Assembly: GCA_947184155.2 (NCBI GenBank)
Contig: CAMXCT020001676.1
Location: 69,501 to 133,500 of the forward strand
Length of the DNA: 64,000 bases
From: Cladocopium goreaui
Lineage: Eukaryota; Sar; Dinophyceae; Suessiales; Symbiodiniaceae
Direction of reading: 5' to 3'
Shown: piece after piece, positions 35,555-61,219 of the stretch
Position numbering within the stretch: position 1 is the first letter of the stretch
Layout of the letters: each line of letters opens with the position of its first letter
Translations under genes and position numbers: made by a program
Notes under the pieces: generated by a model
What the model saw: the letters and a program-made list of their open reading frames with translations, nothing else
Told to the model about the DNA's origin: nothing
Database searches by the model: none

Positions 35555-37665
35555 AGGCTGGGAAAATTTTAAAATTCAAAAAAGGCTGCGAAAAGATAGC
35601 ATTATGGATTCCCTTAAACGATTTTTTTTCAAATAAGAAAATTTTAAAAATCAAAAAAGGCTGGGAGAAGATAGGGTTATGGATTCCCTTATTTGATTTT
35701 TTTTCAAATAAGAAATTGATTTTTTTAAAAAAAAAACTAGTTTTTTTTAAGGAATCTCTTAAACGATTCTCAAATAAGCAAATTTGAAACTTCAAAAAAG
35801 GCTAGGAGAAGATAGGATTATGGATTCCCTTATTATGCCCTTATTTGATGTTTTTTTCAAATAAGAACTTTGAAAAAAACTAGGATTTTATATGAATCTC
35901 TTAAACGATTTTTGTTCTCAAATAAGCAAATTTGAAAATTCAAAAAAGGCTAGGAGAATATAGGATTATGGATTCCCTTAAACGTTTTTTTTCAAATAAG
36001 AAAATTTAAAAATTCAAAAAAGGCTAGGGGAAGATAGGATTATGGATTCCCTTAAACGATTTTTTTTACCTAAGAAAATTTTAAAATTCAAAAAAGGCTG
36101 GGAGAAGATAGGATTATGGATTCCCTTATTTGTTTTTTTCAAATAAAAAATGTTTTTTTTAAAGACTATGGTTTTATATGAATCTCTTAAACGAGTTTTT
36201 TCTCAAATAAGCAAATTTGAAAATTCAAAAAAGGCTAGGAGAAGATAGGATTGTAGATTCCCTTAAACGATTTTTTTTTACCTAAGAAAATTTTAAAATT
36301 CAAAAAAGGCTGGGAGAAGATAGGAGGGTTCCCTTATTTGATAATCAATTTAAAAAAAAACAAGGCTGACATCGGTTCTTTCATCAAATTTGCTTCCAAA
36401 CTGGTGTCTATTGTTTTTTGTTTTTTTTTAATTGTTTAACATGTTTTGGTTGCATTTTTTTTTTGGAATTTTCCTTTTTTTACTATTTAATTTAGTTTAA
36501 ATATATAAACAAAAACAATACCAATCTCTCTGACTCTATTCTACCTACAGTTTTTTTTTCAATCATTTTTCTTATTTTGATTTGATATGTATTTGATAAA
36601 AAATATGGCAATCTTCTCCCAGCCTTTTTTTAATTTTCAAATTTTCTTATTTGAAAAAAACGTTTAAGGAAACATAATCCTATCTTGTCTTCTCCCAGCC
36701 TTTTTTAATTTTCAAATTTTCTTATTTGAAAAACAAATCAAATAAGGGAACCCTCCTATCTTCTCCCAGCCTTTTTTGAATTTTAAAATTTTCTTAGGTA
36801 AAAAAAAATCGTTTAAGGGAATCCATAATCCTATCTTCCCCCAGCCTTTTTTGAATTTTAAAATTTTCTTATTTGAAAAAAAAAAATCTTTTAGGGGAAT
36901 CTACAATCCTATCTTCTCCTAGCCTTTTTTGAATTTTCAAATTTGCTTATTTAGGAAAAAACTCGTTTAAGAGATTCATATAAAACCATAGTCTTAAAAA
37001 AAAAAACACAATTTTGTTATTCGAAAAAAAAACAAATAAGGGAATCCATAATCCTATCTTATCCCAGCCTTTTTTGAATTTTAAAATTTTCTTAGGTAAA
37101 AAAAATCGTTTAAGGGAATCCATAATCCTATCTTCCCCCAGCATTTTTTGAGTTTTAAAATTTTCTTATTTGAAAAAAAAACGTTTAAGGGAATCCATAA
37201 TCCTATCTTCTCCTAGCCTTTTTTGAATTTTCAAATTTTCTTATTTGAAAAAAACGTTTAAGGGAATCCATAATCCTATCTTCTCCTAGCCTTTTCTGAA
37301 TTTTCAAATTTGCTTATTTGAGAACAAAAATCGTTTAAGAGATTCATATAAAATCCTAGTTTTTTTCAAAGTTCTTATTTGAAAAAAACATCAAATAAGG
37401 GCATAATAAGGGAATCCATAATCCTATCTTCTCCTAGCCTTTTTTGAAGTTTCAAATTTGCTTATTTGAGAATCGTTTAAGAGATTCATACAAAAAAAAC
37501 ATAGTTTTTTTTTAAAAAATCAAATTTCTTATTTGAAAAAAAATCAAATAAGGGAATCCATAACCCTACCTTCTCCCAGCCTTTTTTGATTTTTAAAATT
37601 TTCTTATTTGAAAAAAAATCGTCTAAGGGAATCGAATCCATAATCCTATCTTTTCCCAGCCAGGA
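35555..37665. repeat. Palindromic satellite: two inverted arms of about 75-bp units
   Basis: The left arm (about 35555-36341) is built of units with AATTCAAAAAAGGCTGGGAG, AAGATAGGATTATGGATTCC, CTTAAACG and CAAATAAGAAAATTTT, spaced about 75 or about 140 bp. The right arm (about 36738-37665) carries the same units in reverse order and opposite orientation. A 400-bp AT-rich, T-run-rich spacer lies between. The open frames inside are by-products. Confidence 0.92.
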
Positions 37666-40234: not shown

Positions 40235-40628
40235 TTGCTATCCAGTCAAAGTATGCAGCAAATGACTATCCCTTAGTAAAATGTTGGCGGTTGATTCGAG
40301 TTGGCAGAGGATTTCAATAGCCATTTGCAGAATGATGTCACAGGCCAGGGTGCAAGCCTGATGTTGCAGCCCTTGGAATTCAACAACCACAACATTTCGG
40401 TTTGTCCGGGAGATACATTAGTTTCAAGAGGTACACTTGCTGGTATACAACAAATATAAGTAGTTATAAAAACATCAATTTTGGGGAAGTAAAAAACAGA
40501 ATTAGCTTATTTTAAGATCCCATATCATCCCATTTATCCCATGTCATATCGGATTTTCCCATATATCTAATATATTATCCCATGTTATACCATATTATCC
40601 CATTAAGTGTGTCAGAGTATTTTATTCC

Positions 40629-40684
40629 ATGGCATCCTGTTTTCATCTGTCGATTCTTCCATCGTTCAGAGCGTCGTCCACAAA
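40629..40684 (+). CDS. Kinase exon 1 (probable start)
   Basis: ATG at 40629 opens MASCFHLSILPSFRASST plus two bases of Lys. The donor GT at 40685 lies in the terminal repeat of a family C element. An AG (GTGTCAG) 14 bases upstream of the ATG could be a cis- or spliced-leader acceptor. The frame stays open to that AG, so an internal exon is also possible. Confidence 0.6.
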
Positions 40685-43600
40685 GTGGGGCCCCCTAGAT
40701 AGCTAAGTCGGTTTGTAACTCCAATAAGTATAGTTTATGGTACTTATAACCATAGTTAATGGGGTTATTTCGACCAACTAACATCACTGGGGGGGCCCAC
40801 ATTGCAGGTATCAGGACTACAACATGGTGAACCTCATCGGTGAAGGGAGGAACGGTGCCGTCTTCATTGTGGTGACCTCAGAGCCAATTTAAATGGTGTA
40901 TTATATTGTTATATCTTGTTAAATATAAGATAGCTAAGTTGGTTTATAAGTGGCTGAATTCTATGGTTTATGGTAGATATAACGAACTAGTTAATGGGGG
41001 TTATTTCATGGTGTACAAACCAACTAATGACCTCACTGCGACCGAAGCCTGGAATCATGGTTAATAAGGGAAATCATCCCCAAATGACCGCAAGTTTCAG
41101 GTTAGTGAAATATGATAATTTACCCAGATGAATGAGTTAGACCCAGAAAAAAAATCCTGGAAATGATATATATATATATAGTTGGTTTGTGAAGGGTAAA
41201 CAAACATGTTGGTGAGTTGCTTTTGTTGATTAGTCAATGTTAAAAATCTATAGTTGGTTAATGTTGGTTAGTTTTTTTTTTTGGTTGATATAGTGAACAC
41301 AGAACTTGGTCATTTTTCCATACCCACATATACATATCTTTGTGCTTCTTTGGGTACGTGTTTGTTTTTTTGTTTGTGGGATGGTACTTTGGTGGCTAGG
41401 TGAAAATAGTGAACTCTGCAGTAGAAAACTATAGCGCATGGGCGACTTCCCTAGAAGCTATGGAGCCCCAGAGTTAGAAGTTGGTTTTGAAACCCCACTC
41501 ATGAAGTAGTTCGATATAAACCCTATAAACCATATATATATATATATGCATGTATAGATTATAGATTGTTTATTGTCATGTTCACCAACATAGCTAATCG
41601 TAATCGGGGGCCTTACCCGGTGACTGTAATTTGATGATTGGTCAGGTTTTCTGGTTTTCTGGAGGGTAAAGTCAACCCCCGCGTATATCTCGGCTTGAAA
41701 CAAATAGGCATGGGAAGTATGCTCAAAAAGCAATAGATGTTTAAACATTTTCCACATATGGAGGTTTCCTAAAATGGGGCTTGCCCCAAATAAATAATCC
41801 CCCCCAAAACAATAATGCCAATGTGTTGTTTGGCCATATTATTCGGTCAGTTGGGCACCACAGGCACTAAGCCGTATGATCACCGAAGTATGGCCAGTCT
41901 CGCAGAAGTTGCCCGTGTTTCTTGCTGAAATGAGACATTGACATCGGTGGTCGTTCAGTGAGAGTTGGTGTTTACACCCTGAGGTTCAGCACAAGATCAG
42001 CGAGCAGTACTATGCTTGCAAAGTCCTGCACAAAGCCTGGGTCCCGGTGGGTCCTGGTGTTGGAAAATGGCACTTTGTGAATATCCCAACAGTCCCAACT
42101 AAGTATACTAAGTAATATCATTGGTGCAAATGTACAGAAGCCATCATTGGTGCCTTCTTTAAATAATTTATTTGTGACTTTGGGACATGTTCACCAGCAT
42201 ATTCTGCAAGCAGTTCCTGTTCCAAACGCTCGGAGAATGCCTGGTAGGCGGAACAGGACTCCAGCGCGCTACGAGCGGAGATCAAGGACTGGATCAGCTA
42301 CTGTCTGAAAATGGCGGACCGAACGAAGCAAAGGGGATACAACCGGTATACCCTCTGGTAAAGTAACATAGCTATTGAACATGGCCATAGAAATAGTGGA
42401 TTTACCCATTGAACATGGTGATTTTCCATAGTTTTTTTGTATGTTTACCAGAGGGTAATGTTGGTAAAACAACAGCTGGTTGGTGGTTTGGAACCATGGA
42501 ATTGTATGACTTTCCATTCAGTTGGCAATGTCATACTCCCAACTGTTACTCAGTCCATCATTTTTCAGAGGGCTAGCTATACCACCCAGATAAATGTGGA
42601 TCAATCAATGCCATTTGCACCACCTTTTTCTTGGGAGATGGTTCAATTCATAGCTATTAAATTTGGGGATTTAGGGGGACGGTTTATTAGAATTTTACCC
42701 ACATGAAATATTGGATATGATATTGTAGGAATAATTATACCCTCTGGTAATTTAACATAGCTATTGAAAATGACCATTTATAGTGGATTTTCCCATTGAA
42801 CACATGGTTATTTTCCATAATTTCCATAGTTATGTTAGTTTACCAGAGGGTATGTGGAACAATGGAATATATACGATGACTTCCGGTTTGCAAGCTGGAT
42901 ATTTTTCATGTTTTAAATATGTTTAAGGGGTAAGCCGGGTAAACGATCAAATTTTGCATGGTCCACGTGCCATAGCAACTCGTTAAAACACGAGAATATC
43001 ATTTTGATGTGTGCAAATCGATGAATTTCAAGATAGGTTAGGATAGTCATTTACAGAAAAAAATAATATCACTTATTTAAATCCTTAAATAGATGATAGA
43101 TGGAGAACTTTCACTGGAGATGTTCAGACATTTTCCTGCCCTTCTCTCTATTTGATGGGCATTGTCCAGAAGTTTCCTGGATTTACACAAGGTCGGCCCT
43201 CGGTCCCTGTTGCTTTATAAACCCTTTGAACTACATCGAACTATGTCTACTTCTATCATTTTATCATATTTTATCTACCATAAACATCCATAAACCAATA
43301 CAGTAGAATCCACTTTTGATGGCCACTAACTTAGCCAATTTCCTAAAGATTTTTCACGGACCCTCCCACCTTGCAGCTTTCCGGCAGAACTTGCGGATGC
43401 TGGACCATCCCCACTTGGTTCGCCTCTACGAAGTCAATGAAGACGCCGAGGCGAACGCAGATTTCCCACGGTTCGTTGTTTTTTTCAATCTGACGTAGGA
43501 TCCATGGTTTAATCAGAGTCACTGGTATTTAGTTAGCTTTAATCATGGGATATAACTTGATATAACCATATAACCAACCAAGTTGATATGACACTTACCC

Positions 43601-46600
43601 TCTGGTAAACTAACCTAACATAGCGAACTGGAAAATCACCATGCTATTAATGGGAAAACTCACTCTAAATATTTAATTAATGGGCCAGCTATTCAATAGC
43701 TATGTTAAATTACCAGATCAAAGGGTACCCTTAGGATCAAAGTAGACAAATAGGGCAGTATCGGCAAAGTCGGTCCCAGAAGGGTACTTTTCGGACAATG
43801 CACCATCTTTTGATCCTCAGAGTATAAGGTAGTTTTAAGTCATTCTGAATGAAATCTATTGAAATCTCATGTTTGTTAAATCTGACTTAATAAATATAAT
43901 ATATAATAATATATATATATATAATAATTATAATCTTAATAACAATCTGATCTTTTTTGCCCTGCTTGAGGCAGTTTTCCTGCTGATGGAGTATTGCAGT
44001 GGAGGAGATTTGTTCAGTCCGGTGGCTCAGATGAAGAGATTTCAAAGTGTCAAAAGTGTGCCAACTCGGTGTTGTTCCAGTTCGGTGGCCAACTCGGTTT
44101 ATAACAAAAGACAATGATTTATAGGGGATACATGTATTTATATATACCCTACAAGTCCGCGACATGAAAAGAAAGGGGGTTAGGACTCGACCTTTCTTTG
44201 GCGTGAACCCCCTTTGTTTGCATGCTTCGCTTTTCGGCTTTGGACCGATTCTGGTCAAAAACACATCACTGGGGGGCTCCATCTTGTACAGGTTTGGGAC
44301 AAATGCTCTTAGTTGAATGCTAAACAACGATTGAATGCAGAAACTCGCGATTCAAACAGACAACTTTGGTGATTTGAGACAAAATGTATCAAAATGTAAG
44401 CCAGTGGCAAACTCAAGTCACCAGAAAATATGTTAGACTTCACGTCAGCAAACTTTCTTCAGAACCGTTAGACATCATTACAGTTATGGCCATAAAAACC
44501 AGTTATAACTGGTTATTTCTATGGGATGAAATACATTCTATAAATGGGGTGACTTGTTAGTACTTATAACTGATCAACTGCCATAACTGTAGATATCATT
44601 AGACTTAAGATTCAACAAACTTTCAGCTCTCCTGCCAGGCCTCGTGACGGAAAGCCCCGAGGGTCGGCTGCCGGAGAAAACGGCCAGATCCTTCGCTGAG
44701 CAAATGCTCAGTGCGCTCCAGTGCCCCGGGTGGACTGGTAAGGTGCCACTGTCAGGAATGAGATATCACTTAAAATTGGGCGGTAAACCGGAACTAACCT
44801 CTCCTGTTTTTTTCGACAACGGTGATTGCCCCAGGGTTGATTTTATGTTATTCGGAAATGTAGCCACCTACTTGTAGCAAAGTTCATAAATGTTCCATAG
44901 TTTGAAATTGAAATTATTAATTAATGTATGTATGTATGAGGTATGAACCATTGCTATCCATTGCTATGTTAAATGGCCCAAGTGCAATCATGTTTGTATT
45001 CCAAGTCTTGTATGGGAGGACGCCCATTTAATGAATTTGGGAAAAAAAACGGGTTATGAACTATTTGCAAACTGGGATGCACCCCCGGTCGCCTGGTTTC
45101 GACAAGTGTTTCTTAAATGTTTGGGGCATCAAAAGCTCCGGTAATCAAACACAATGGAAATCCCCCATTGAATGATGTTCCATTGAAGCTCCATTGATAC
45201 AATGTGCGGTCCCCCAGTTATAAGTTGGTTTATAGACTCCAGTAACTATAGTTCTAAGTACCAACATATAATAACTTTTTTATACCAATTAATATAAACT
45301 ATAGTTTTGATTAGCCCGTTATAACTATATAGCTCCAGTAACCCCAGTAGCATTTTAAATTTAATAAGTTGGAGTCACGTTCACCAACTGAGCTCCGATT
45401 TTCCGGGGATTCAGGCCGCAGCTCACCTCAAATGGCTGCAGGTATTGCCACTCCATCGGCATCGTCCACCGGGACGTGAAGTCCGGGCCCCAGTGGAGAA
45501 GGACTTTCTGGGTCTTCTGCGGTAGATCCTAGCAGAAACATCCATAAACCCATATAAAAACCCTACAGGATGGGGCCTGGGGCTAAGTTGAGATATAAGT
45601 GGTTTAACTATGGTTTATGGCTTATGATAGATATAACTATAGTTAATGGGGTTTATAAACCAACTTATAACTGGGGGGGCACCATCCTGTATAGTTAGTG
45701 CGTGTTAGGACAAAGTGGTGCCCCCTAGATAGCCAAGTTGGCGAACATAGCTAGTATAGCTATATTTATAGCTAGGGCTTATGGGAATGATAACTATATA
45801 ATATCACAGTATATATATATATATAAAGTTCATAGGGCTTTACAAACCAACTTAGCTAACTATGGGGGGGCACCATATTGTGGGATGATCCTCTAAGTAT
45901 GAACTACCCCATTCTTTGGGTTGAAGGGGCAGATTCCAAGGACTTCACGACGATCTGTGCCATAATCTGACATCTCACAGATACCAGCCTTGCTTGTTGC
46001 CCAGAGAAAGGTTCCTGGGTTCCAAGGAAATGGCATTGCTTTGTCTGAAATTCCGTTTGATTCAAGGTCTTGAAGGCATTCCCAACATTATTCAAGGTCA
46101 TTATCTCAAATTATGTAGGGATACCCGAGGAATCGGAGTTTTTTGCTGATATCCCTACATACTACTGATTTGTCATAGTCTTGCAAGGTGGAGTCCCCCA
46201 TTTATAACTTAAGTCTAATCATGATCAAACATAGCAATCACCACAACCATCCCATAACCGTAGCACCGTGTGGGTACCTCTCTGTCACACCGAAAGCATA
46301 CTGAGATCGCCCTGAAAAGTTCCCTGACTTTGTTTTGGTTGTTTTTTTTTGAGGTGAAATCCTAAAAGGAACATGAGCATAAGGGTTAAATATGCTTAAA
46401 TCGCAAAAAAAAAACATGAAAAAGAATAAAAAGAAAACCATCGACATCACAAGTTTTGCTGCGAAGTTCCAGTTTCTGCCCGGATCTATCGCCTTCTATC
46501 CCCAGGCCAGAGAACTTCCTCCTGGAAGGTGCTGTCGGGGAGGCCAGGGAAAAGCCGGGGCTTGGGGAATAGAAAGGCTGTTAAGATCGATCAAAACCTA

Positions 46601-49027
46601 TAGAAAAAACTGTGGTTACCCATAGGATCCATCTATGGTATATATGCTAACATTGGGGGTATATTGATGGTAAATGTTACATATATAGCATACATGGATC
46701 CTATGGGTTTTGATTTATGATTGACGAATCTCAAAAAACAGGTGTTAAACTCGTTGAAACATAATATGTTGAAAAAGCTCGCACGAGCGTAAAACAAAGG
46801 ATAAAAATAGTGGATCCGCTCCAACTTGCTTGGTTCATAGAGTTCACATCGCGGTTCTGAACACGTGTCAACATCGCACAGGACGCGTCCACGGCCACGT
46901 TGAAATTAGCGGACTTTGGCATTGCCACGCACATCCGGCCGCTCTGCGTGACACGGAGGGACGTGGAGTTGGGTATGCAATGAGTTGTGCATTTGCAAAT
47001 GGGGTACTGGTTGGTGGTTTGAAACATGTTTTACTTTTCCATATCTTGGGAATGTCATCATCCCAACTGTTACGAACTCCGTCATGTTTCAGAGGGGTAG
47101 GTCAACCACCAACCAGGGTAGTTTACCACAAAAGCCATGCCAAATCTCCAGTAAGATGACTGTAAGTCACTGGCCTCGGAAGGATAAGCTAAGCTGCTTT
47201 CCTGGCCTCCAATAACTCTGCGATTTCTGATATATATATATATATAATATATATTATATATATAATATTTATATATATATATATGTATATGGTATATATG
47301 ATATATATGATATATATGATATATATGATATATATATGGTATATATGATATATATGATATATATGATATATATATGATATATATATGATATATATGATAT
47401 ATATGATATATATATATATGATATATATGATATATATATATATGATATATATATATGATATATATGATATATATATATGATATATATGATATATATGGTA
47501 TATATGATATATATGATATATATGATATATATATGATATATATGATATATATATATATATATATATACGTATATATATATATATGTTTGTAGTAATCATG
47601 GGGGTTATAAGATGTTATAAGATACTTATACGGTATAAGTTGCACCTGTAGTATTCATGGCGGTTATTAATGCGGTTATAAACCAACAAACATCGTGTTT
47701 TGGGGGGCACCAGATTTTCATTGGCTGCTCACTGCCTCACTGAAGATACTGAAGCGGTTTGTTGCCTCGCGCATGGCACCCATGGGTATTGCCTCCAAGA
47801 CTCATTTGCATTCATTTGCTTCATCCTACAAGGTGGTGCCCCCAAGATAGCTAAGTTGGTTTATAACTCTAATAACTATGGTTTATGGTACTTATAACTA
47901 TAGTTAATGGGATTATAAACCAACTTATGACTTGGGGGGCACCACCTTGTATAACATCCTATAAAAACGACCACAGATGTTCAAAGTTCACTCTAAGCCT
48001 TGAAGTATTTTAGGCAAAATCTTTACTGTACCCGTACCCCCCAAAAGTGACACTATGCGGGGTTACCAAGCTGCAATATTGTCCACTGTCGCGGAGTTTT
48101 GTGGATGTTAGTGGACGGGGAATTTGACACCATCCACTGTTCCCAGGATGTTCCGTGATGTTTCCCACATATTTTCCAGGTTCTCAACTTGTCTTTTCTT
48201 TCCCATGACGGATCCGGTCCATGGTGCTGCTATATATGGTGTGCCATGGATCCCATCATTTTTTACCCCAGTCATGTTAGCATTAAAATACTAGCACCAT
48301 GGATCCGTCATGGGTGTTGGTAAACCATGGAAAATCACCATGTTTAATAGGTAAAGCACCTATAAATGGGCCATTTTCCATAGCTATGTTAGTTCAGCAG
48401 TGGGGTGCCGACACCTTGCTCCACTGCCTGCGGTTGTCGAGAGCCCAGGTCGGCTGAGAGCCTTTCGGAGGGACAGGTGAACGGCAGCAGCTCGGAGCGG
48501 AGCGGAGCGCTGGGAGAGATCAGTTGGGATGCGCTATGCTATGCAGCAGGCCATGGTATTAGTAGGAAATCGAAAGGAAAAACATCACACATACATTATA
48601 TCATATACGAATATATACAGATACTGATTGGTCGTTTGGAACATGTTTTTTTTTATGACTTTCCATATCTTGGGAATAATTAATAATCCCAACTGTTACT
48701 CACTCCATCATGTTTCAGAGGGGTAGGTCAACCACCAACGAGAAAGTTATATCAATGGTCAATGCCTACAAACTATTATTACAACCTATTGTGACGGAGT
48801 CAAAGTTAGAATGAGTCCCGGTTTTCCAAAAAAAAAGGATTCGTGCACTTAGAATGAGGTGAAAAACACCCTCAGTTAGAATGAGGGGGGCCTTCCAACC
48901 TTCAAATCAAATCATAAATCTATCTTAAACCATCCAAAATCCAGTAAAAGGAAATAATTTCCAATGCAACGGGTCATCAAAACCACAAACTATATATATA
49001 TGCATGAGTTGTCAAGGTTTATATTCT

Positions 49028-49059
<32 letters not shown>

Positions 49060-52000
49060 GAAACCTATCCCTTCCATCCCAGCCTGCACTCGTCACGCCC
49101 ATAGGCGGTTGTGGTCATTTTCCCCGTTTTCCCGCCTTGTTTTGAAATTTCGATCCTCTAGTCCCTAAGTCCGCGTGGATTCATCAAAACAACGAAAATA
49201 TGTATTTATATATATAAATATCCAGAACTAAAAAGATTCCAACACCAATAGGATGGGGGTTCCTGTTTTGGAACTTTCAAGAGCCCCTGAAGCGGACAGA
49301 ATTCGCACATGCTTTGAATTTAGCCTGAGGCCGCCAAACTATGGAACGTACTGGGGTGGCCCCGAGTTCGGGAAGTCCCAATGAAAAAATAGATTCACAG
49401 TTAGAATGACTGCCCTTAGCCGACATGCATGGACATTTACATAAATAAATAAATAAATATATATATATACCGTATATACACATAAGAAATCATGCTTTGT
49501 GATGAAACCAGAAGTTTTGATGGTTATAGTGACCGAGGGAAAGATAGAATGAGCGTTTGGAAAACCGCTATGATTTTTTTTGGGCCAAATGCAAGGCAAA
49601 ACCCCTCATTCTAAGTGAAGGCACCCGGTTTTTCCATTTATCACCACAGTTAGAATGACGTCGTTTTTGCGCTTTAGGCTCTGACTTTGCGGCATGTGTG
49701 GGGAACTGCATTTTGGCGACCACAGATAGAATGACGACCAAACAGATGCCGAAACCGTTACGCAGTCCCAATCCGTTAGATTCTTCCAGAAAAGTGTCGT
49801 TTAGTCCATGCCACCCATACCCTTCCGCCTAGGATGATTCATAAACACGACCATCATCATCACATCATCTAAATCACCTGATCTAATCACTTCGTCATTA
49901 CTACCACCATCTGCAAGAGCCATGGACGACATCAGGGAGGGACTCCTGCTATCAGCACCACCAGGCCTGACTGGTTTTGGGCCTGCCCTCAAGCTTTACA
50001 CCGAGAGAGAAGGGGAGAGACAGTTAGATATAGATATCGATGTAGATATGCATACACAGCATGTACATATTCATATTTATATACATACGCGCACACCTGT
50101 GATATTTTAGTGTGTATATAAATATAGTGATATTTGCATATAAGTAGAGGATCCGGTGCTCCTCTTTGACAAATACTTCCCTTTCAATTTCAAGCATGTT
50201 GCAGGCGCTGAACCTTGGGAACGAAGGGAGCTGGCTCCCCTGCCACCACCTGATGAACCTCCCCCGGAATCGGTGGAGACGAATTCACCGACGGCTGAGC
50301 CATCGGCAAGTTCAGTTGAACCTTCTGCGATGACAGCCCAGCCCGTCCCTACTCCAGATCTTCCCGCCGGGATCAAAGAGTTCAAAACCACGTGCCTTGG
50401 AATTGGTCATGGGTGAAAACTAAGTGGATCACTTCAGTTTAACTTTGGAAGATTATCCCGGTATGGTTTTTTCACTGGTGTAGGTGGGGAAACTGCTGAA
50501 ATTTGTGAGGCTGAGTTAGAATGGGGTGCTTGATTCAGAAGCTTTGCTTCCCCCCTACCAAGCTTTGCCCGAGAGCCGCAGGTTTCAAGTGAAAATAGAG
50601 GGGAAGACGCGGATCTTCCCAATCAAGCTATACGGTGACAAGCTAGCCGCCCGAAAAGCAGCTGTCACGTTTCAGCAGCGGGTCACCCGCATGCTGACCC
50701 GATGTGAGGTCATGAAGGGTCAGGCACGGATTTAGCCTGAGGCCGCCAAACTATGGAACGTACTGGGGTGGCCCCGAGTTCGGGAAGTCCCAATGAAAAA
50801 ATAGATTCACAGTTAGAATGACTGCCCTTAGCCGACATGCATGGACATTTACATAAATAAATAAATATATATATATATATACCGTATATACACAAGAAAT
50901 CATGCTTTGTGATGAAACCAGAAGTTTTGATGGTTATCTTTAATGAAACTTACAAGCTACCATCAACTCATATGATTCTTTCGAAGGAACGTTCGATTCT
51001 GTTAGATCCCCTGGGCTGAACATTTTTCTCCAGCTGAGTTAGAATGACTGTTCCAGAATACCTAAACCCCCAAGTACCCTATGAAAAAAGGTAAAAGTAC
51101 CCAAACAATGGGGAAGTATTATAGATGGGTATATATGGGTATATGCAAATTCGCACAATAAGGAAGGCTTGAAGGTCAAAGTATTTACTTGGGTTCTCAG
51201 ATCCGTGCCTGACCCTTCATGACCTCACATCGGGTCAGCATGCGGGTGACCCGCTGCTGAAACGTGACAGCTGCTTTTCGGGCGGCTAGCTTGTCACCGT
51301 ATAGCTTGATTGGGAAGATCCGCGTCTTCCCCTCTATTTTCACATGAAACCTGCGGCTCTCGGGCAAAGCTTGGTAGGGGGGAAGCAAAGCTTCTGAATC
51401 AAGCACCCCATTCTAACTCAGCCTCACAAATTTCAGCAGTTTCCCCACCTACACCAGTGAAAAACCCATACCGGGATAATCTTCCAAAGTTAAACTGAAG
51501 TGATCCACTTAGTTTTCACCCATGACCAATTCCAAGGCACGTGGTCTTGAACTTTTTGATCCCAGCGGGAAGATCTGGAGTAGGGACGGGCTGGGCTGTC
51601 ATCGCAGAAGGTTCAACTGAACTTGCCGATGGCTCAGCCGTCGGTGAATTCGTCTCCACCGATTCCGGGGGAGGTTCATCAGGTGGTGGCAGGGGAGCCA
51701 GCTCCCTTCGTTCCCAAGGTTCAGCGCCTGCAACATGCTTGAAATTGAAAGGGAAGTATTTGTCAAAGAGGAGCACCGGATCCTCTACTTATATGCAAAT
51801 ATCACTATATTTATATACACACTAAAATATCACAGGTGTGCGCGTATGTATATAAATATGAATATGTACATGCTGTGTATGCATATCTACATCGATATCT
51901 ATATCTAACTGTCTCTCCCCTTCTCTCTCGGTGTAAAGCTTGAGGGCAGGCCCAAAACCAGTCAGGCCTGGTGGTGCTGATCGCAGGAGTCCCTCCCTGA

Positions 52001-55000
52001 TGTCGTTCATGGCTCTTGCAGATGGTGGTAGTAATGACGAAGTGATTAGATCAGGTGATTTAGATGATGTGATGATGATGGTCGTGTTTATGAATCATCC
52101 TAGGCGGAAAGGTATGGGTGGCATGGACTAAACGACACTTTTCTGGAAGAATCTAACGGATTGGGACTGCGTAACGGTTTCGGCATCTGTTTGGTCGTCA
52201 TTCTATCTGTGGTCGCCAAAATGCAGAGTTCCCCACACATGCCGCAAAGTCAGAGCCTAAAGCGCAAAAACGACGTCCTTCTAACTGTGGTGATAAATGG
52301 AAAAACCGGGTGCCTTCACTTAGAATGAGGGGTTTTGCCTTGCATTTGGCAAAAAAAAAATCATAGCGGTTTTCCAAACGCTCATTCTATCTTTCCCTCG
52401 GTCACTATAACACATTTACAAATAACATCAAATAACCCGTTCCACAGTTTTCTTGTGTCTCGTGAACATGTGGATTTATGAGTAGGCTTGCCGCATTATA
52501 GGCGGCCCTTCAGAGCCTAAGTAACCTCTAAAATCCTCTCTATATAAATCACTGCAAAGTAGTACAGGGTTCCTTCAACCTACAGCAGGTAAATGATTGC
52601 CACAAGTGGGGAAATGGCTGATTCTACCTCTTTATTTAATTTGGCTAATTTGCCCCTGTAGTATCCGGGGTGAGCAACCCTTCAGTAGTTGTTACATGAT
52701 GATGACATACTCCAATGGGATCCAATGGGTGTGTTGCCAATGTCCAGCCTAGATTCAAATCGAGGGGAATGAGAGGGTTACCACCCGAAAAGTGTGATAA
52801 TAAGTTTTTTTTTCACAAAAAGGACTGCTCTAGTTCAACTAGTACTCATAGCTAGCCAGCTGTGTATGATTGATCCAACCGGCAGTAGGAAATCGAAAGG
52901 AAAAACATCACACATACATTTACAAATATATACAAATACTGATTGGTGGTTTGGAACATGTTTTTATTTTTCCATATCTTGGGAATAATCATCCCAGCTG
53001 ACTTTAATATGTTTCAGAGGGGTTGAAACCACCAACCAGTATACTTCCTGCAATTTAATTTGGCGAACAGCTTTTCTGGTTCGTTTACCTTCCATGAACT
53101 GAATGAATGAAAACATATTGTGGACAAGTCACAGTTTAAATCATATAAAGAAGTGCATTAGTGAATGGGTGTGTCTCAAGATAGGGTGCAACATTCCATC
53201 TACTGGTTACAGTTATGGCCATTTATCAGTTATAATTAAGTACTTATAACCCCATTTATAGAATGTATAATCCCATTTATAACCACTTATAACCGGTAAA
53301 TGGCCAGAACTGTGATATTTAATGATCATGTTTCCCTTTCTATGAAAACTGCTAATGGTCATGTCATGCTTTGGGTCAATCCCCCATTTTCCCCATTAAA
53401 TCCATCGATGATATCACCATTGTCCATCGGTAGTTATACCCGGTTTGCATGGACAAAATGGAAAGTACCCTCTGGTAAATTAACATAACTATGGAAAATC
53501 ACCATTTTTAATGGGAAAATCCACTATAAATGGTCATTTTTAATAGCTATGTTAAATTGCCAGAGGGTAAACTGACGCTTCAACATGGACAAAGGAACAT
53601 ATATATATATATATATATATATATGGATCTCCATAGGCGTTTGGAGTTGCCGTGTCTCATTAAATCATTGGCACTGTTGAGGTCTTCATGTCCACAGCCA
53701 CTTTTCACAACTAGACTGTGATATGCCGATTTCTTTGGTTGCACCTAAAACTAGGGCTACCCTGAATCATCGATTTTCATAGGGTATTTCCGTTAACCAT
53801 CCATTCTGGGGTATGCCCATGACTTGGGAAACGTCCATATTCTACCCTTCAAAGTTGACCAGAGATTCAGAATGAAGCCCTCATTGTAGCAGGCAGCTTT
53901 CGGTTTGTAAGCAAATGGACACTTTTGAAGTCAAAATCCCGAAGTGAGCTTCAGTGAGTATGACAATGAACCAGGGTCTACCTATTTAGGATTGACAATG
54001 GTTGACACTACCTCAAGCGACTGTATAAACATTATAAACCCCATAGATGATGGGTACATGTTGGGAAATGAACACTTTGATGAAATCAATACCGCAATCC
54101 CAGTACCAGGAAGCCTGGGGTTCGAAGTATTTTCACCTCAACAGAGTCAACTATTGGCCAACAAAAGAAAGATATCCAACTGAAATTGTCAGATTCATTT
54201 ATAATAAACCCCAGATAAGATGCAAAAGTAAATCCCTATAGTTAATAGAGATAGTTTATGATATGTTGTAATTGCTATATTGATGATGGTTACACTACAT
54301 CAGTATTTCTATAAATGATTTCTCTGATATAAGCTACTACTTTGACAGCCGGGCGTATCTGTTCTTCCTTGGCGCTTGAGCGCTTGATCTTCGGCTGCAC
54401 GGCTCACTAAGGTGTGCCATACATGGCTCCAGAGCTCTTTACCAAACGATGGAGCTCGTTGGTTCGGGACCGCGGAGATTACTGCGCTTGTTTGATCGGG
54501 GATGGCGTATCAATATCAACCCGACTGGTTGATCCATAATGACTACAATGTGGGAAAAACGATGCCATAAACCATCCCCCAAATCACCTTTTAAATAGTT
54601 TGTATACGGTATCCGTATACATGTATAAATTATTATAAACCCTTCCCAAATGGGTGGTTTGTTGTTGTTCTACCCGCATTAGAAGCACCAAAAATACTTA
54701 AATCTGGATTCTTACCATGGATCGATGATCAATGTATAGGTGGTTTATCACACGACAGTAGCTTGCTTCACCCCAGTGGAGCAACCAGAAACTTTGCCGA
54801 TAAAGATAGCAAGGCTTCTCCCACCCAAAAAAACGATTCGGATGAAAAAAACTAAGATCCAACGTATAAGTATACCTTGACCCTTGGATGGGTAGAAATA
54901 CTCGATGGGATAAAATCGAATGTTTATGGATAAATGCATGAACAAAACGTTGAATTTTGATTTGCTGAGATCATTCGGAACTGGTGGGGGAGCGTCAGCT

Positions 55001-57739: not shown

Positions 57740-59225
57740 CTCTCTCTGAATAGGTTTGTTTGCTGGGTTCACTATTGCAGCAAGCTGTGCCAGAGCAGCC
57801 CCTGGAAGCCCAGAAGGGAAGCAAGCCATTTCCAAAATTGCCAAATTCAAACTCCAAGCCTTTCCCAAAAGAACCAATCCCTTATTAAACCCTTATTAAA
57901 GAACAGCTTTTCCACAATTTTCCAAGGCCCTGGACCAGGAGAGGCCCCATTTCACTTTAGTAGGTTTTGTTTGATGGGTTCAAATTTGCAGCAGCTGGTT
58001 GCCAGAGCAGCCCCTGGAAGCCCAGAAGGGAAGCAGCCTTTTCCAAAGGCAATTGCCAACTTCAAACTCCCAAGGGGGGGCCTTTCCAAAAGGAGCCAAT
58101 CCCTTATTAAACCTTATTAAAAGAAACAGCTTTTCCACAATTTTCCAAGGCCCTGGACCAGGAGAGGGCCCAATTTCACTGTAATAGGTGACATGTCTCC
58201 CCGGGTTTGTTTCGCCGGCCTTCAGCCTTGTTTTGTTTGAACGAGACCTTGGGCATGGGGGGGTTCACATTGCGGGCAAGCTGTTGCCAGAGCAGCCCCT
58301 GGAAGCCCAGGAAGAGAAGAAAGACTTTCCAAGGCAATTGCCAAGTTCAACTCCAAGGCCAATCCTTATAAACCCTTATTAAAGAACAGCTTTTCCACAA
58401 TTTTCCAAGGAGGAGAGGCTCCATTTCACTTTAGTAGGTTTGTTTGCTGGGTTCACTATTCCAGCAAGCTGTGCCAGAGCAGCCCCTGGAAGCCCAGAAG
58501 AGAAGCAAGCCTTTTCCAAAGGCAATTGCCAAATTCAAACTCCAAGCCTTTCCCAAAGGAGCCAATCCCTTATTAAACCCTTATTAAAGAACAGCTTTTC
58601 CACAATTTTCCAAGGCCCTGGACCAGGAGAGGCTCCATTTCACTTTAGTAGGTTTGCTTGCTGGGTTCACTATTGCAGCAAGCTGTGCCAGAGCAGCCCC
58701 TGGAAGCCCAGAAGGGAAGCAAGCCTTTTCCAAAATTGCCAAATTCAAACTCCAAGCCTTTCCCGAAGGAGCCAATCCCTTATTAAACCCTTATTAAAGA
58801 ACATCTTTTCCATAATTTTCTAAGGCCCTGGACCAGGAGAGGCTCCATTTCACTTTAGTAGGTTTGTTTGCTGGGTTCACTATTGCAGCAAGCTGTGCCA
58901 GAGCAGCTCCTGGAAGCCCAGAAGAGAAGCAAGCCTTTTCCAAAAGCAATTGCCAAATTCAAACTCCAAGCCTTTCCCAAAGAACCAATTCCCTTATTAA
59001 ACCCTTATTAAAGAACAGCTTTTCCACAATTTTCCAAGGCCCTGGACCAGGAGAGGCTCCATTTCACTTTAGTAGGTTTGTTTGCTGGGTTCACTATTGC
59101 AGCAAGCTGTGCCAGAGTAGCCCTTGGGAGCCCAGAAGGGAAGCAAGCCTGTTCCAAAATTGACAAATTCAAACTCCAAGCCTTTCCCAAAGGATATTAA
59201 ACCCTTATTAAAGAACAGCTTTTCC
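57740..59225. repeat. About 210-bp tandem repeat, seven units
   Basis: Units contain GTAGGTTTGTTTGCTGGGTT, AGAGCAGCCCCTGGAAGCCC, CCTTATTAAACCCTTATTAA and CAAGGCCCTGGACCAGGAGA. Clear units start near 57750, 57960, 58190 (diverged), 58435, 58645, 58857 and 59068. No gene is supported; the open frames are repeat by-products. Confidence 0.9.
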
Positions 59226-59226
59226 A

Positions 59227-59421
59227 CAAGTACTACAAGTACTACAAGTACTACAAGTACTACAAGTACTACAAGTACTACAAGTACTACAATTACTACA
59301 AGTACTACAAGTACTACAAGTACTACAAGTACAACATGTACTACAAGTACTACAAGTACTACAAGTACTACGAGTACTACAAGTACTACAAGTACTACAA
59401 GTACTACAAGTACTACAAGTA
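59227..59421. repeat. 9-bp minisatellite TACTACAAG, first block
   Basis: About 21 units of TACTACAAG with occasional T or G variants. It directly abuts the last unit of the 210-bp array. Confidence 0.95.
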
Positions 59422-59576
59422 CGGCCAAACACCTTGATTTGCCCGCGCTTTTCGGCGGCCATCTTCCGACGTGCTGAAAACGTGGTAAAAATGGGAGTTT
59501 TTTGCATGACCGGTAACTTGAAGTTGTTTATCTCAACGCACAGGTCCCTGACCTGTGCGCGGCTTTTACACAGCAA

Positions 59577-59647
59577 CATCATCATCATCAACATGAACAT
59601 CATCATCATCATCAACAACATTAACATTAACATCAACATCAACATCA
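59577..59647. repeat. ATC/AAC trinucleotide tract
   Basis: CATCATCATCATCAACATGA and AACATCAACATCAACATC-type units. Confidence 0.9.
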
Positions 59648-60312
59648 GTTTAATATTCCCCAAATACCGTTGTTGATTTTCCCAATTGAATGTAAAGTTT
59701 AACGGGGGTGGGAGTTTAATATTCCCTAAATACCCTTGTTGATCTTCCCAATTGAATGTAAAGTTTAGCGGGGGTGGGAGTTTAATATTCCCCAAATACC
59801 CTTGTTGATCTTCCCAATTGAATGTAAAGTTTAACGGGGGTGGGAGTTTAATATTCCCTAAATACCCTTGTTGATCTTCCCAATTGAATGTAAAGTTTAA
59901 CGGGGGTGGGAGTTTAATATTCTCTAAAACCTTTGTTGATCTTCCCAATTGAATGTAAAGTTTAACAGGGGTGGGAGTTTAATACTCCCTAAATACCCTT
60001 GTTGATCTTCCCCATTGAATGTAAAGTTTAACGGGGGTGGGAGTTTAATATTCCCTAAATACCCTTGTTGATCTTCCCAATTGAATGTAAAGTTTAACGG
60101 GGGTGGGAGTTTAATATTCCCCAAATACCCTTGTTGATCTTCCCAATTGAATGTAAAGTTTAACGGGGGTGGGAGTTTAATATTCCCCAAATACCCTTGT
60201 TGATCTTCCCAATTGAATGTAAAGTTTAACGGGGGTGGGAGTTTAATATTCCCTAAATACCCTTGTTGATCTTCCCCATTGAATGTAGAAGTTTAACGGG
60301 GGTGGGACATTA
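59648..60312. repeat. 66-bp tandem repeat, about ten units
   Basis: The words CCCAATTGAATGTAAAG, TTTAACGGGGGTGGGAG and CCTAAATACCCTTGTTGAT recur every 66 bp (59681, 59747, 59813 and so on). The period is a multiple of three, so a 22-residue repeat frame (NIKLPPPLNFTFNWEDQQ) stays open on the minus strand. Confidence 0.95.
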
Positions 60313-60385
60313 TCTTCCTAATTGCATGTAAAGTCAACCCAATGGTAGGGTATAAAAGGGGTGTGGGCGAATCAGGGTGTTTGCG

Positions 60386-60783
60386 CGTACAAGTACTACA
60401 AGTACTACAATTACTACAAGTACTACAAGTACTACAAGTACTACAAGTACTGCAAGTACTACAAGTACTACATGTACTACAAGTACTACAAGTACTACAA
60501 GTACTACAAGCACTACAAGTACTACAAGTACTACAAGTACTACAAGTACTACAAGTACTACAATTACTACAAGTACTACAAGTACTACAAGTACTACAAG
60601 TACTACATGTACTACAAGTACTACAAGTACTACAAGTACTACAAGTACTACGAGTACTACAAGTACTACAAGTACTACATGTACTACAAGTACTACATGT
60701 ACTACAAGTACTACAAGTACTACAAGTACTACAAGTACTACAAGTACTACATGTACTACAAGTACTACAAGTACTACAAATAC
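60386..60783. repeat. 9-bp minisatellite TACTACAAG, second block
   Basis: About 43 units of the same 9-mer as at 59227, with TGTAC and TTAC variants. All frames on both strands stay open. Confidence 0.95.
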
Positions 60784-61219
60784 CACAACTTCATCGGCAA
60801 AAAAAAACAATAGTAATTAGATTTCAATTGTAGCCAATTGAAATCCTTACTTAATCGAGGATATGTTTTTCTTTTGGGAAGATTTTTTTTGCTTTTCTAC
60901 TTTAAAGAGAGTCCAGATATAGTTTAGGGGAGGGGGGGGCCACACACTAATCAGGAACCAACATTACAAATCCAAAAGCATCAAGGGTTGATCATCCATG
61001 TCCTGACATTTTCACCCCAGGGTTGATCATCAATTTCCATATTAAATCCCATTAGATCCGATGAAATCCCGTGAAACTAAAAATCACATTCTCCCGTCTA
61101 TTCCCATTGAACCCCATTAGACCCCCTTTAAATCCCTTTAAATCCCCTTAAATCACATGAAATCACTATAAGATCCCATCAAAACCCATCAAAATCCCAT
61201 TTTTTTTGGACCCAGTCAC
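60784..61219. other. Stretch between satellites and the glycosyltransferase exons
   Basis: AT-rich. From 61035 to 61200 short phrases such as AAATCCCATTAGATCC and AAATCCCTTTAAATCCC recur loosely. The last exon of the minus-strand gene should lie here or further left but was not found. Confidence 0.5.

Follow-up and report, generated by a model that had tools for sequence, protein, structure and literature searches.

A MITE-like element as a candidate intron in a Ser/Thr kinase gene of the dinoflagellate Cladocopium goreaui

Can a transposable element become an intron when it reaches an exon? This question is raised by a kinase gene in the 64,000-nt stretch of DNA that we analysed (hereafter the window; C1676:69501-133500 of a 1.17-Gb assembly of 6202 contigs, which was also the genome searched). 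According to the original prediction, a terminal-repeat element forms the whole of intron 1 of this gene and carries both splice sites within its own ends.

The element and its family

We found that the stretch concerned is a MITE-like element, a single copy of a non-autonomous DNA transposon that has been strongly amplified. It is short, has inverted termini (CAAAGTGGGGCCCCC and GGGGGGGCCCACATTG; the family terminus is CAANGTGGNGCCCC) and no coding capacity, with stops in all three frames, and it belongs to a family with many copies and a 2-bp target-site duplication, as is usual for MITEs.

40681..40804, + strand: MITE-like element, 124 nt, matched by the 26-copy family profile from its first to its last position
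40679..40680, + strand: left copy of the target duplication, CA, 2 bp, read from the sequence
40805..40806, + strand: right copy of the target duplication, CA, 2 bp, read from the sequence

A single-sequence profile of 40680-40812 revealed many related stretches in the window, and a family profile built from 26 aligned copies (two identical copies were dropped) gave 17 places, complete or partial, at E<=1e-3 (a manual count). Genome-wide, the two-ended pattern GTGGNGCCCC-N75..105-GGGGSNCCAC matched 2592 times on the forward and 2623 times on the reverse strand, compared to 0 and 1 for the reversed control, so that the predicted repeat family is indeed real. Because the element comes close to being a palindrome, the majority of copies are found on both strands, and these counts therefore correspond to ~2,600 intact copies. 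Divergence from the consensus is 8.1% for the kinase-gene copy and ranges from 1.6 to 9.1% for the 26 profile copies. No match to the 22-nt core of the element was found in viral contigs, and nothing was found by Rfam and tRNA scans of the window. The dinoflagellate spliced-leader core was present genome-wide 81 times forward and 91 times reverse (reversed control 0 and 0), which marks the host as a dinoflagellate.

The following other copies lie in or near introns of the kinase gene:

40928..41038, + strand: related family copy inside the next, longer intron of the kinase gene
45582..45684, + strand: related family copy inside intron 45481-46505
45711..45880, + strand: related family copy inside the same intron, 45481-46505
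47829..47949, + strand: intact family copy with a TA/TA duplication, downstream of the DFG exon

The window holds further repeats. A second MITE-like family with ends ACCCTCTGGTAAA and TTTACCAGAGGGT has 13 end matches in the window, including 42350-42456, and one of its copies begins directly behind the kinase exon ending near 42345. A large inverted repeat (49523-50731 / 51201-52411) has arms of ~1.2 kb that are 98-99% complementary, an AT-rich repeat array at 35562-37633 contains both orientations with arms up to 324 nt, and 59122-60820 consists of 9-bp and 66-bp tandem arrays.

At the kinase gene the site reads CA, then 40681..40804, then CA. Identical 2-bp flanks were observed in 35/47 family copies and identical 3-bp flanks in 0/47 (TA/TA 29, TG/TG 3, CA/CA 2, TT/TT 1, unequal 12), in a sample that was not chosen by flank and includes the kinase-gene copy, many of its members having been found by similarity to that copy, the query including 8 bases of the copy's right flank. 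The left terminal repeat (CAAAGTGGGGCCCCC) has its first base at 40681, and the profile match runs up to 40804. Given these ends and the CA/CA flanks, the terminal repeat begins four bases before the donor GT with which it had been thought to start, and the acceptor AG, which had been assigned to the inverted right terminus, lies outside the element and is made of the duplicated A and a target G.

The kinase gene and the candidate intron

The host gene does encode a Ser/Thr kinase. An exon string assembled by hand gave a Pfam PF00069 match at 6.7e-30, and many PDB kinases match it by sequence.

40295..40456, + strand: preceding open frame and possible upstream exon, an open frame without homology support
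40808..40868, + strand: kinase glycine-loop exon (YQDYNMVNLIGEGRNGAVFI), its end at 40868 set by eye
45442..45480, + strand: 39-nt kinase exon YCHSIGIVHRDVK, both borders set by conserved motifs
46885..46980, + strand: kinase exon region with LADFG, ends approximate

Two joints are fixed by conserved motifs, since joining 44720 to 45442 gives LQYCHS and joining 45480 to 46506 gives HRDVKPEN. The corresponding introns, of 721 and 1025 nt, surround the 39-nt exon and have the borders CCA/GTGCCC...GCAG/GTATTG and GAA/GTCCGG...CCCAG/GCC (a slash marks the splice border), from which it follows that tiny exons and donors unlike GTAAGT occur in this gene. A local kinase profile gave weak matches to LADFG at 46885-46929 (E 0.28) and to DLWSCG near 55561 (E 0.041).

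Neither a close paralogue nor a processed copy of the kinase turned up among the 150 scored of 180 candidate loci. Ranked by E-value, the top locus apart from the kinase gene itself shares 37% identity with it (34% when aligned a second time), and kinase matches of much higher identity elsewhere in the genome are short. Many long-ORF kinases with a GC of 0.55-0.62 (L015, L019-L021, L023, L029, L031, L034) lie on contig C1 of 7.38 Mb, which, judged by nothing more than its size, GC and long frames, resembles a bacterial genome within the dinoflagellate assembly.

The features of the candidate intron are as follows:

40685..40807, + strand: candidate intron, 123 nt, delimited by sequence and open frame; use of the sites putative
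40778..40782, + strand: CTAAC, possible branch site, found by eye
40670..40684, + strand: putative micro-exon, 15 nt (or 13 nt from 40672)

Both predicted splice dinucleotides are present: the GT at 40685-40686 begins at base 5 of the element, inside its left terminus, and the AG at 40806-40807 is composed of the A of the duplicated CA and the target G at 40807. The claim that the splice sites lie inside the element's own ends consequently stands for the donor and fails for the acceptor, which would be recruited from the target. Removal of 40685-40807 leaves an open frame, reading ASSTKYQDYNMVNLIGEGRNGAVFI, and thereby restores the frame into the glycine loop as predicted. The empty site, ASSRYQDYNMVNLIGEGRNGAVFI, shares this frame with the spliced form and the glycine loop. 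With 126 nt inserted and 123 nt in the intron, the net gain is +3 nt. As in introners, the putative splice sites are at or beside the element ends and the frame would be kept. The second A of CTAAC, a motif also present in the family consensus, precedes the last base of the AG by 26 nt.

Upstream, the candidate micro-exon stands behind a pyrimidine-rich tract ending in CAG at 40669. In its 15-nt form it joins in phase to the upstream donor 40363 (phase 2), and in its 13-nt form to donors 40350, 40404, 40431 or 40443 (phase 1). The predicted RNA fold of 40665-40830 (-55.7 kcal/mol, z -3.0, 1/200 shuffles as good) pairs both ends and pairs the donor bases too.

We hypothesize that the element targeted a CAG close to the 5′ border of a kinase exon and duplicated its CA. 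The GT at base 5 of the element's inverted terminus would provide the donor, CTAAC within the element could serve as the branch site, and the AG would be rebuilt from the duplicated CA and the target G. Under this hypothesis the cell would most likely remove the element as a 123-nt intron, with 3 nt gained and the frame kept. We favour a micro-exon model of this kind, with a putative exon at 40670-40684 and a putative donor at 40685, and give it an even chance of being correct. The model is preferred because the pyrimidine tract ends in CAG, because GCAG/GTATC resembles the motif-fixed GCAG/GTATTG, and because the empty and spliced forms share a frame. The element ends, the CA/CA flanks, the stops in the element and the common open frame all speak for an intron born by insertion, as do the gene's other donors unlike GTAAGT, its AG/G acceptors, its 39-nt exon, its Pfam kinase match and the paired ends. 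Counting against it are the small size of the upstream exon (13-15 nt), the preceding open frame with its lack of homology support, the pairing of the donor bases in the fold, and rival frame-compatible sites: 40363 also joins 40808 directly in frame, and the phase-0 donors 40337, 40400 and 40421 join 40815. The prediction that the element is the whole of intron 1 is accordingly supported in part, by an element with inverted ends and a 2-bp duplication that stands within 4 bases of a kinase exon, by the GT in its terminus and by the common frame, and is weakened by these other donors and acceptors.

These rival sites permit other explanations. It is rather unlikely, in our judgement, that the element sits at the 3′ end of a longer and older intron, inserted into its CAG acceptor, which the CA duplication would have kept working; we equally doubt that the donor lies upstream (for example 40363, phase 2) and that 40670-40684 is not an exon. 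Joining 40363 to 40808 does give a GT-AG intron, in frame and without a micro-exon, 10 nt separate a pyrimidine tract from the insertion point downstream of it, and all seven other family places in the kinase gene are within longer introns. However, the first AG past the pyrimidine tract is 40669 and not the insertion CAG, and the element sets 124 nt between the tract and the acceptor. If the acceptor were instead the AG at 40813-40814 (GTATCAG/GAC), the element would not be exactly the intron, a reading that we regard as improbable; equally improbable are the two forms that it could take, an intron including the element from 40400 or 40421 (phase 0), or one from 40685 after a 15-nt exon SVVHK. 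While phase-0 donors exist, the HKDYNM or NISDYNM frame is open and the acceptor is of the AG/G type, the alignment to the local kinase profile, a weak one (E 1.2), begins at YQD (codons in 40808-40817), and the empty site would fall out of its frame.

There is also a slight chance that the insertion broke the gene, or that the gene is unexpressed, and that the element is retained unspliced. With stops in three frames a retained element would truncate the protein, and neither a close paralogue nor a processed copy attests expression; yet HRD, PEN, DFG and, weakly, DLWSCG (E 0.041) are open, in order and on one strand.

Target preference and coding context across the family

Do copies of this family commonly act as introns? 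The genome holds 123 oriented matches to ACAANGTGG...TTGCAG (56 on the forward and 67 on the reverse strand, with none on either strand for the reversed control). Fifty of the 123 CAG copies were examined, namely the kinase-gene copy and 49 from 50 fetched loci with one duplicate dropped; they stand first in the list sorted by contig, from which three places were omitted. In all 50 the gain upon splicing would be +3 nt, because the donor is fixed at base 5 and the target is CAG.

The left flank of these 50 copies is CA in 44 and TA in 6 (for CA, binomial p 4e-21 against 0.245 in the window, with a search pattern that fixed only the A of the left flank and with the kinase-gene copy among the 50). 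For oriented copies with CA on the right, the next base is G in 123/337 (36.5%) compared to 19.8% in the window (p 1e-12). The 29 TA/TA copies likewise have an outward G at 21/58 ends (11 right, 10 left) compared to 17% (p 4e-4), and the rate of G after CA and after TA insertions shows no difference (Fisher p 1.0). Furthermore, the base preceding the left CA of CAG copies is C in 21/43 versus 31% (p 0.01). The insertion machinery thus seems to favour C-NA-G-type targets, which double as 3′ splice acceptors, and the G after the duplicated dinucleotide at ~36% of ends (background 17-20%) is apparently a target preference. The CAG excess had at first looked to us like selection for splicing, a reading that we dropped, since TA/TA insertions show an equal rate of G, and on both sides; we take target preference to explain the excess, and by its taste for G it supplies an acceptor-like YAG.

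Coding signal beside the borders was scored with a codon table derived from ten kinase ORFs, after eight loci on contig C1 had been set aside as probably bacterial. In the 60 nt next to the donor and to the acceptor, 2 and 1 of 50 copies scored within the top 5% of a CAG-conditioned background (2.5 expected) and 3 and 3 of 50 within its top 10% (5 expected), in a test of limited power, as 31% of training-exon windows pass a comparable threshold. With 36- and 90-nt windows beside the borders no top-10% count exceeds 6 of 50, and against random places 3 and 3 of the 50 CAG copies were in the top 5%. Ten spliced frames, picked by open-frame length or codon score, gave no Pfam match above gathering and one below it (DUF2715, E 0.078). 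The reading of the family as a mass introner is therefore not supported, on 50 of 123 CAG copies without coding excess and at the limited power stated above.

Each of the seven further copies or fragments in the kinase gene is separated by 61-849 nt from the closest known exon upstream and by 147-7797 nt from the following one; these distances depend in part on approximate exon ends, and the gene may have additional exons. At 25 other kinase-match loci outside C1676 no family copy was found; this and the 50 CAG copies without coding signal above background were both counted against an intron born by insertion. The absence of a coding excess, the intronic places and the 0/25 kinase loci together indicate that the family is mainly a non-coding MITE. 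On these results the family does not look like the introner of the original prediction, and "direct sequence evidence" for an intron-creating element is too strong a term for what is one candidate intron.

We tentatively suggest a MITE with a preference for YAG, about 1/3 of whose ends, in either orientation, carry a ready 3′ acceptor, the kinase intron being one realised case among ~2,600 intact copies. Together with the fixed GT in each terminus, such a preference could conceivably, though we hold this with low confidence, amount to an intron generator that is independent of length and preserves the frame (+3 nt at CAG).

Comparison with known introners and MITEs

Tc1/mariner-type MITEs are short, with inverted ends, a 2-bp TA duplication and a high copy number. 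The family described here resembles them in its size, its inverted ends, its copy number and its 2-bp duplication, which is mostly TA, and differs in that CA, TG and once TT were duplicated too.

Introners are on record from several dinoflagellates. In the excerpts of Gozashti et al. 2022 (PMC9860276), those of Symbiodinium microadriaticum have 4-bp duplications, carry the 3′ site and recruit the 5′ site, and those of other species bring the 5′ site with them or add codons. For Polarella glacialis, 12,253 recent introner introns are given (Roy et al. 2023, as cited in the portion consulted of PMC11453091), and introner-type introns are reported from Prorocentrum cordatum in an extract of PMC10666404. 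As far as the excerpts of PMC9860276 go, the kinase-gene element is like dinoflagellate introners in being a short non-autonomous DNA element with inverted ends and a target duplication that can supply an intron, one splice site being carried and one recruited from the target. Unlike in S. microadriaticum, the duplication is 2 bp and not 4 bp, and the 5′ site would be carried and the 3′ site recruited, as in the Chrysochromulina example in the same excerpts. Also unlike dinoflagellate introners as excerpted there, we have one candidate intron and 50 splice-competent copies without coding excess.

In Amoebophrya, a relative of dinoflagellates, the inverted repeats of introners pair the intron ends (excerpts of PMC7789003), as they do in our predicted fold. 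The same excerpts describe non-canonical splice sites and direct repeats of 3-5 nt, whereas the kinase-gene candidate has GT-AG and a 2-bp duplication; unlike the Amoebophrya introners described there, it also belongs to a large family lying mostly outside coding context. A search of titles and abstract starts, in which sequences are not searchable, returned nothing on this particular family among the matches listed.

The introner idea is thus already known in dinoflagellates, and the kinase-gene family possibly adds to them, only if RNA confirms the splice. In that case, a mostly non-coding MITE family would become an intron on reaching an exonic CAG, and the acceptor would come from the target preference and not from the element. 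If true, this would link a transposon's choice of target to the places where introns can be born, and it would make a countable prediction for RNA data.
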